A DNA stretch of 57,737 nt from Paraprevotella xylaniphila YIT 11841 (GTDB lineage: Bacteria; Bacteroidota; Bacteroidia; Bacteroidales; Bacteroidaceae): contig NZ_GL883891.1 of NCBI RefSeq assembly GCF_000205165.1, positions 1-57,737 of the forward strand, given 5' to 3'. Of this stretch, positions 1,200-57,737 are shown piece after piece. The stretch's first letter is position 1, and each line of letters starts with the position of its first letter. Both the position numbers and the translations under genes were made by a program. The notes beneath the pieces are model-generated. The model did no database searches. It worked only from the letters and a program-made list of their open reading frames with translations, and was not told the DNA's origin.

Positions 1200-1222
1200 C
1201 TATCTCTTCACAAGAGATGAAC
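1200..1222. repeat. left arm of invertible promoter IR
   Basis: This 23-bp arm is a perfect inverted copy of 1408-1430. The arm is itself a near palindrome: ATCTCTT, a 3-base centre (cac, centre at 1210), then AAGAGAT. The same core with a different centre occurs at 57509-57530 and 57716-57737. Confidence 0.85.
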
Positions 1223-1229
1223 CACGTCG

Positions 1230-1256
1230 CAAAGATATACAAAAAAAGTCAATAAA
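1230..1256 (-). promoter_or_regulatory. invertible promoter, ON orientation toward upxY
   Basis: TATCTTTG (1237-1230, minus strand) is an exact TAnnTTTG -7 box. TTTA sits about 19 bases upstream in the -33 region, a weak match. The box lies 20 bp inside the centre of the left arm and reads leftward into the antiterminator gene 200 bp away, so the sequenced orientation is the one expected to express the polysaccharide locus. Inversion of 1223-1407 would point it away. Confidence 0.75.
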
Positions 1257-1407
1257 GTGCTAAGTAACAACGAAAAAAAATGCATTTGTTTTCCGTTCAT
1301 TGTTTTGCAAAATCGTGTTTGCTCAACGAAAAACAAATAAAGGCTGATTCTGATAAACCAACTAATCAAATGGAATACAGCATCTTACGCATCAAAAGCT
1401 CTAATTA

Positions 1408-1430
1408 GTTCATCTCTTGTGAAGAGATAG
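1408..1430. repeat. right arm of invertible promoter IR
   Basis: Exact reverse complement of 1200-1222, with its core centre (gtg) at 1420. The two core centres are 210 bp apart and enclose 185 bp of A+T-rich sequence with no gene. Confidence 0.85.
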
Positions 1431-57286: not shown

Positions 57287-57313
57287 ATTCTTCTATTTTT
57301 AGACATTACGGTA

Positions 57314-57321
57314 CAAAGATA
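57314..57321 (-). promoter_or_regulatory. -7 box of the five-gene ygiQ-menA-ettA operon
   Basis: TATCTTTG on the minus strand is 28 bases upstream of the start codon at 57286 and is the end of the repeat copy 57314-57338. The upstream copy at 57401-57408 could be a second start point. Confidence 0.5.
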
Positions 57322-57425
57322 GTGAAAGGCGAGCGCAGTTCCAAGCCAAAAGCTTGCTTTTGAACGAAAGACTGCCGAGCCGCATCCTATCTTCGTGAAA
57401 CAAAGGTAGTGAAAGGCGAGCGCAG
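57314..57425. repeat. dispersed repeat with two 25-bp direct copies carrying -7 boxes
   Basis: 57314-57338 and 57401-57425 are 24/25 identical direct copies (starting CAAAGATAGTGAAAGG and CAAAGGTAGTGAAAGG) 87 bp apart. Each gives an exact TAnnTTTG box on the minus strand (TATCTTTG 57321-57314; TACCTTTG 57408-57401). Between them ACTGCCGAGCCGC...CTATCTT is an imperfect inverted copy. The first box is placed to drive the five-gene operon. Confidence 0.65.
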
Positions 57426-57463
57426 AGGCAAATGAAAATGTTTTTTTCTGATTGGGCTTAGAT

Positions 57464-57508: not shown

Positions 57509-57530
57509 GCTCTCTTAGGAAGAGATAAAC
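57509..57530. repeat. left arm of second invertible promoter IR
   Basis: 22-bp arm, exact reverse complement of 57716-57737; core TCTCTT-agg-AAGAGA with centre at 57518. Confidence 0.85.
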
Positions 57531-57681
57531 CGGAAGCGGAACAAGGCAGTTAGTAAATGAGTTATGGCATTCGAGTGTTCGCGTTTGAAAACGTTTCTGA
57601 AGAATTTGTATTACGGAAACACAGCCCCATGATACCTAAAAAACTCATCTGGAATGAGAAAAATATTTTAAAAACAGCGCG

Positions 57682-57708
57682 TTGAATGAAATATTTTTTA
57701 TACTTTTG
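57682..57708 (+). promoter_or_regulatory. second invertible promoter, firing out of the right edge
   Basis: TACTTTTG at 57701-57708 is an exact -7 box with TTG 19 bases upstream (57682). It ends 20 bp before the centre of the right arm, the same distance as in the first element. It points rightward, presumably into another surface-structure locus beyond the window. Confidence 0.75.
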
Positions 57709-57715
57709 CCGAACA

Positions 57716-57737
57716 GTTTATCTCTTCCTAAGAGAGC
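57716..57737. repeat. right arm of second invertible promoter IR
   Basis: Exact reverse complement of 57509-57530, core centre at 57728. The window ends on its last visible base, so the arm may be longer. Confidence 0.85.

Follow-up and report, generated by a model that had tools for sequence, protein, structure and literature searches.

An invertible promoter in Paraprevotella xylaniphila, one of twelve probably served by a single tyrosine recombinase acting in trans, and the stepped lengths of its relatives

Near each end of the window, by which we mean the whole stretch of 57,737 nucleotides analysed here from contig C87 of Paraprevotella xylaniphila YIT 11841, lies a short segment bounded by inverted repeats. 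The contig carries no match to the Resolvase or Phage_integrase families, in keeping with the statement in a preliminary description that the window holds no recombinase gene. The locus raises two questions: which enzyme might act on these segments, and what determines their length. The right-hand segment, which is our focus, is bounded by arms at 57509-57530 and 57716-57737, each of 22 nt and 100% complementary, so that together they form a perfect inverted repeat. Within the arms are cores of the form TCTCTT-N3-AAGAGA, at 57511-57525 with the central trinucleotide AGG and at 57721-57735 with CCT, and between the cores are the 195 bp of the putatively invertible interior (57526-57720, plus strand). 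Inside the segment there is a single outward -7 box of a Bacteroides-type promoter, TACTTTTG at 57701-57708 on the plus strand; the Bacteroides consensus is given as TAnnTTTG in PMC4747536. It reads towards a upxY gene just outside the window (C87:57894-58448, plus strand), which encodes a UpxY-family antiterminator (123.7 bits, with 100 as the cut-off), and the switch is predicted to be ON. The end of the window at 57737 is set by a scaffold gap of 10 N (C87:57738-57747), immediately 3' of the right arm, and after the gap the 22-nt arm is written again. We considered whether the copy at C87:57753 is a real third arm and rejected this, since an assembly join is the most likely explanation, as at two similar places on contigs C23 and C32. 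Upstream of the switch there is also a 48-nt direct repeat (57313-57360 and 57400-57447, 77% identical, 87 bp apart).

The left-edge switch has arms of 26 nt (1197-1222 and 1408-1433) that are 96% complementary, with cores at 1203-1217 (centre CAC) and 1413-1427 (centre GTG). Its -7 box, TATCTTTG, lies at 1237-1230 on the minus strand and faces a UpxY-family transcription antiterminator gene at 494-1024, also on the minus strand (NF033644, 119.4 bits, cut-off 100); this switch too is predicted to be ON. In both switches promoter position and upxY orientation agree, each promoter being directed outward at its antiterminator gene. Measurement bore out the geometry of the preliminary description in every respect: the core centres are exactly 210 bp apart in each case (1210/1420 and 57518/57728), each -7 box ends 20 bp from a core centre, and the interiors are unrelated, with nothing in common beyond 7-mers. 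Core pairs of this type were found in 0 of 100 dinucleotide shuffles of the window. Just past the left-edge switch, two perfectly complementary 24-nt arms flank a loop of 6 nt (1596-1649), the whole being nested in a 51-nt inverted repeat of 84% identity (1462-1512/1764-1814).

A search of the whole genome (3.79 Mb in 87 contigs) returned 26 exact TCTCTT-N3-AAGAGA cores, compared with 1 for the reversed pattern, and these make up 12 inverted pairs when one partner with a single mismatch is admitted (C75:37067) and three arms doubled at 10-N joins are counted once. The genome-wide set that had been predicted from the two window switches thus exists. The idea of a fixed 210-bp spacing did not survive, because the distances are 154, 174, 175 (four times), 177, 184, 186, 210 (twice) and 211 bp. 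Widening the pattern to TCTC-N7-GAGA at the same distances added one place, C63:150301-150500, which has the centre CTAATAT and lies beside a recombinase gene (L044). An outward TAnnTTTG box starts 20-23 bp from the core in 8 of the 12 switches; in three others the nearest such box is at 41-45 bp, and at the switch on C15 there is no exact box. As segments that carry promoters between inverted repeats, these elements have the layout of invertons. The candidate target genes near them include upxY twice, a hybrid two-component regulator (C32), leucine-rich-repeat proteins (C75, C79), glycosyltransferases (C33) and a DUF3575 protein (C15), and the remaining neighbours belong to no clear family. 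We note that the 10-N join at the focal switch has counterparts at C23:62067-62076 and C32:68371-68380, all three placed exactly at arms, with the arm written twice. Assembly breaks with doubled arms of this kind may flag sites that are actively inverting. A tandem extra arm without intervening N, unlike these joins, occurs in Bacteroides stercorirosoris (L243) and P. faecalis (L245), 35 or 22 bp away.

Do these segments invert? Comparison with Paraprevotella clara YIT 11840 sheds light on this question. Ten of the switches have a collinear counterpart in that species and in eight of these the interiors can be aligned. Five are in the same orientation, and three, on C23, on C79 and at the focal locus, are opposite to both of their flanks, so that 3 of 8 comparable segments are found in both orientations between the two species. 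At the focal locus the interiors are 82% identical over 196 columns (L214 in P. clara), and direct reading of the sequences places the promoter towards upxY in P. xylaniphila and away from it in P. clara. Since the focal interior is inverted between collinear flanks, we conclude from this alignment that the segment probably flips. The cores could in principle be static protein-binding sites or hairpins that never recombine, and it is true that every core is itself nearly palindromic. This reading has virtually no likelihood in our estimation, as it is contradicted by the three orthologous segments just described. A mixture of orientations in the sequenced population would produce runs of N at arms, and indeed all 3 N-runs in 252 kb (the window plus the stretches L016-L045, partly overlapping and partly picked around switches) are located there, which argues indirectly in the same direction. 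Recombination between cores of the TCTC-N7-GAGA type would turn a promoter towards or away from the adjoining surface gene, which at both edges of the window is a capsule-type upxY.

The composition of the cores is informative about how pairs may be kept together. We scanned public genomes for the inverted pair at distances of 151-211 bp and obtained at least 117 stretches. In all 106 listed stretches labelled Bacteroidales the central trinucleotide is reverse-complementary between the two arms. In the other 11 listed stretches the centres are unmatched in 7, as those of chance pairs should be, and matched in 4, of which one, labelled Lachnospiraceae, holds a gene resembling the tyrosine recombinase P0002 that is discussed below; for this reason a binning error is likely. 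That stretch (L064, JAFQOE010000165.1) is a 4.4-kb contig with a Bacteroidales-type recombinase and a switch cassette, and it represents either a misbinned contig or horizontal transfer. Nine stretches came from viral contigs, with matched centres in 6 and unmatched centres in 3. The trinucleotide is not frozen in evolution: it differs between P. xylaniphila and P. clara in 3 of 10 orthologous switches, namely the left-edge switch of the window (1203-1427; L215 in P. clara), C32:68179 (L212) and C79:11157 (L205). In each of these the arms still match within each species, so both arms have changed. Such a change would fit an overlap that needs homology for strand exchange. Other members of the P0002 family lie beside switches with the centres CTAATAT, CTATGGT, TATTGTA, TCCGCAA, TGTTTAA, TTACTTA and TGCGCAA, and on these grounds we infer that TCTC and GAGA are the constant parts of the site and that its centre comprises seven bases. 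These seven bases would be the strand-exchange overlap, with the cleavage positions presumably set by it, and the middle three would have to match between the arms and might serve as an address for each switch. The addresses are not unique, ACT being common to C15 and C23 and AGG to C87 and C33. The overlap of lambda integrase is 7 bp, which by analogy would agree with a seven-base centre.

Outside the core, the half-site extension AAGAGA[TG][ACG][AG]A[CT] is present in 82 of 101 half-sites in P. xylaniphila and P. clara compared with 31 of 400 elsewhere; this pattern was picked after viewing the data, and orthologues do not count as independent sites. A common extension is what one common recombinase might be expected to require. 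In the pooled pairs described below, we saw no conserved motif inside the segments apart from some 12 bases of each half-site.

The preliminary description had proposed that the switches form one regulon of a trans-acting invertase. With twelve pairs and no recombinase gene beside either window switch, this is likely to be right, and it may be asked what kind of enzyme is involved. In Bacteroides fragilis the serine recombinase Mpi is the master enzyme of seven capsule promoters (PMC4747536), and the P. xylaniphila genome has a single Resolvase match, the serine recombinase P0001 on contig C66, which might by the same logic be the master here. P0001 is present in only 1 of 18 genomes of the genus (E 1e-5; it is absent from the other 17), in contrast to the cores, which occur in 13 of 18, so that the notion is already contradicted for the genus; a serine recombinase common to the site-bearing genomes was not found. 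Further, the odd-length centre would suit a tyrosine enzyme better than P0001, and the gene adjoins a relaxase-like gene in what resembles a mobile-element setting. We have therefore rejected P0001 as the enzyme and regard a serine master as very improbable. The locus itself (C66:68385-71810, L026) has P0001 between relaxase-like and methylase-like genes, the neighbours being named from sequence, as on a mobile element.

The best candidate is instead a tyrosine recombinase, P0002, encoded at C8:18642-19844. The protein has the Pfam domains Arm-DNA-bind_5, Phage_int_SAM_5 and Phage_integrase, and K276, R349, H350, H372 and Y381, which we take to be its catalytic residues, are invariant in 43 of 43 aligned rows, so that the core of a tyrosine recombinase is intact. 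The predicted model of P0002 (mean pLDDT 85.3, pTM 0.52, poor around residues 373-385) finds its best solved folds in lambda integrase and Xer (1z1b, 4a8e), although these are long matches of low TM, with 15-17% identity and a TM to the query of 0.27-0.34 over the whole model. The likeness to lambda integrase and Xer would concern the modelled fold alone, the biological role being different.

Association with the sites is evident at several levels. Of the 117 listed stretches from the public scan, 27 contain a gene of the P0002/L044 type. By a rough estimate, based on the three homologues that 3.8 Mb yielded at E 1e-60, a homologue would be expected in about 0.6% of stretches of 8 kb. In all 22 of these genes that are full-length the switch follows the stop codon, within 60 bp of it in 17. 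This arrangement resembles that of the invertons in the hCom2 study, in which a tyrosine-type invertase adjoins the inverton in an orientation that keeps it from being driven by the switch, and in which UpxY is an enriched target (PMC11892184). In a tree of 60 rows, P0002 belongs to a clade of 10 Paraprevotella genes with support of 100/100; the tree leaves out G000:C82, G001:C1, G007:C3, G007:C81:7668, G013:C6 and rows shorter than 280 aa. Up to 900 bp downstream of these 10 genes we found no repeat pair of the TCTC-N7-GAGA type, the DNA searched at L167, L168 and L170 being only 603, 48 and 650 bp. One of the ten (L172) has an unrelated 18-nt repeat downstream.

Within the genus, the tree clade of P0002 alone separates core-rich from core-poor genomes. 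Eight of the ten carriers have 7-28 cores, the exceptions being G003 and G004, with 0 and 1 (these assemblies are 70% and 78% complete), and every one of the 8 genomes with at least 7 cores carries the clade. Core counts in the eight non-carriers are 0, 0, 0, 0, 1, 4, 5 and 6. A one-sided rank test comparing the carriers with these eight gave p 0.0035, with kinship not corrected. With a line at 49% identity, drawn after seeing the data, Fisher's test gave 3.4e-6, or 6.7e-5 when P. xylaniphila itself was left out. The mere presence of a P0002 homologue proved too coarse a predictor, since at E 1e-40 it holds for 16 of the 18 genomes of the genus. Apart from the two exceptions, then, the enzyme gene and distant sites occur together, as in a trans regulon. 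The flanks of P0002 align with those of the 9 other carriers upstream in 7, downstream in 6 and on at least one side in all 9, from which we conclude that the gene is a resident locus. At the level of the order, the inverted pair was found in 4 of 198 genomes, all 4 among the 17 that have a homologue at E 1e-60; the other 13 of these 17 lack the exact pair. In a small genome of another family (G041), the 4.8 kb surrounding its one P0002 homologue (C4:121686-122885) contain no core, and its seven pairs are spread over seven other contigs (C8, C10, C15, C18, C23, C26 and C27). Judging from this distribution of sites, G041 is likely to harbour a second trans regulon.

Taken together, these observations point to P0002 as the enzyme that would act in trans on all twelve switches. 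There are, however, 19 Phage_integrase matches in the genome, and one or more other tyrosine recombinases, L044 on C63, L191 on C85, an interrupted gene on C20 or XerC/XerD, could flip the sites alone or jointly. The C20 gene (C20:131403-131843) resembles an intact gene on C52 and contains an in-frame TGA. That an enzyme encoded elsewhere can take over is suggested by a switch in P. vulgatus, which inverts despite a broken adjacent recombinase, its authors supposing that another acts (PMC13114119), and L191, like P0002, lacks a local switch. We nevertheless consider such a substitution unlikely. In trees and scans the switches of the TTNNNAA type go with P0002-like genes; L044 has its own switch with the different centre CTAATAT; and L191 groups with genes of a separate branch of the family, which have repeats of another type, with GAAGCGG. 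This grouping in the tree is the only reason for which L191 was set aside.

How does the proposed P0002 regulon compare with known systems? Promoter inversion in Bacteroidales, upxY genes as its targets and the serine master enzyme Mpi are all in print (PMC4747536, PMC3090145, PMC10939037, PMC13114119). Among the closest by description is BF2766/Tsr19 of B. fragilis, a tyrosine recombinase that inverts one local and one distant promoter, IVp-I and IVp-II (PMC4747536); it shares with the present system the type of enzyme, the promoters of surface genes and the TAnnTTTG boxes. It differs as described there in having two targets and a switch beside the enzyme, whereas P0002 would have 12 candidate targets, all of them away from its own gene. 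Mpi/FinA, like P0002 as proposed, is a master enzyme that works in trans, and its seven capsule promoters precede up(a-h)Y genes (PMC4747536, PMC3090145); unlike it, the present system would not depend on a serine enzyme, that of this genome having been excluded. The hCom2 study tied groups of inverton motifs to groups of invertases by proximity, within 5 kb, and in contrast to the trans set described here the portions of it available to us mention no orphan master enzyme (PMC11892184). The bare TCTCTT-N3-AAGAGA motif may already be catalogued, for example in the motif supplements of that study. Resistance genes under invertible promoters have been described with P. xylaniphila among the hosts, and a literature search for Paraprevotella with invertible promoters found this report only (PMC8748976). 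Invertible promoters with tyrosine invertases are thus already known; the new elements are the size of the proposed trans regulon, the matching of the centres and the steps in length to which we now turn.

The preliminary description had suggested that a spacing of 210 bp, being 20 turns of 10.5 bp, may be fixed by synapsis. We pooled 137 pairs, 12 from P. xylaniphila, 14 from P. clara and 111 among the listed matches of the scan. Pairs that have unmatched centres or contain N were dropped, and clustering on common 11-mers, with one pair kept per cluster, left 115. In 92 of these 115 a distance of 20-24 bp separates the core from the start of the -7 box. The spacings show modes near 152, 164, 175, 186, 198 and 209 bp, and both window switches are at 210 bp because they share a length mode and not because of any special status of this value. 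The best period for the 115 pairs is 11.35 bp (R 0.55), with a bootstrap 95% interval of 11.05-11.65 that excludes 10.5, for which R is 0.44; the agreement of 210 bp with 20 turns of 10.5 bp is therefore a coincidence. None of 3000 smeared sets matched the observed strength of periodicity at any of four bandwidths. Taken species by species, R is 0.79 at 11.3 bp for P. xylaniphila (p 1.5e-4) and 0.78 for P. clara; in the latter a 10.5-bp period scores almost as well (0.75).

Lengths outside the scan range are scarce. Among 62 genomes selected because they contain sites, spacings of 213-273 bp gave matches in 5, comprising one assembly join, two with a tandem arm and two simple matched pairs (216 and 271 bp), and spacings of 90-150 bp gave one pair, of 142 bp. 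One matched pair at 309 bp was found in G005 among the matches listed for the genus search. The predicted steps of 141.0, 152.3 ... 208.8, 220.1 bp accommodate the pairs at 142 and 309 bp and do not accommodate those at 216 and 271 bp. A broad spread of spacings had been named beforehand as grounds for abandoning the original proposal, and a range of 154-211 bp literally constitutes one, yet the spread is stepped. What is lost is the single value of 210 bp, and what is supported is a constraint of helix phase.

The segments, mostly of about 150-211 bp, would on our account be held to steps of about 11.3 bp, as one would expect if synapsis has to bring the two occupied sites together over a loop that is short and torsionally stiff. 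The best period of 11.35 bp falls between two helical repeats that PMC1762422 gives from fits to looping by lac repressor in live E. coli, 11.08 bp per turn for the wild type of Becker et al. and 11.60 for the data of Muller et al.; the reference list of that paper includes work on helical repeat and assembly of the Hin invertasome (Haykinson and Johnson 1993). Common descent, or growth through small duplications, might produce steps without any role for helix phase, and this we take to be a minority possibility of some weight, a little less remote than a different tyrosine enzyme. The dominant 175-bp mode could be ancestral, and a near-exact tandem duplication of 9-13 bp is present in 12 of 125 segments, a count made without a shuffled control. 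Against descent, the pairs had been reduced by shared 11-mers, and when the 170-180 bp mode is removed the remaining 66 pairs still have a best period of 11.15 bp, a strength reached by none of 3000 smeared sets; the periodicity of P. xylaniphila on its own argues in the same way. Synapsis across a stiff loop thus appears the better candidate for the cause of the steps. In PMC11892184 the word "spacing" is absent from the main text, and a search of the literature on inverton length periodicity and on inverton and recombinase motifs returned no title or abstract opening that reports length steps.

As a whole, these results lead us to think it probable that the focal segment is one of twelve invertible promoters, that the set is served by one resident trans-acting tyrosine recombinase, most likely P0002, and that its lengths follow steps of about 11.3 bp. 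A more general proposition, which we find only slightly easier to accept than to doubt, has two parts. Across Bacteroidales, the lengths of TCTCTT-N3-AAGAGA switches would be stepped by the helix turn in vivo (about 11.3 bp) and confined to a narrow range, thereby recording the helical repeat and a torsionally strict synapse; and in Paraprevotella a recombinase would have lost its local switch and become the master of a dispersed surface regulon, in which the seven-base centre is an address that separates each pair from most others. For the organism, a gut commensal, the analysis puts forward a candidate master invertase, open to experiment, that would control a dozen switches of capsule and surface genes. 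The site code, TCTC-N7-GAGA with matched centres, could tie switches that lack a recombinase to their enzyme. Finally, it is suggested that helix phase sets the length of a switch, and if this is true the natural lengths of invertons would reveal the twist of DNA in organisms in which it has not been measured.
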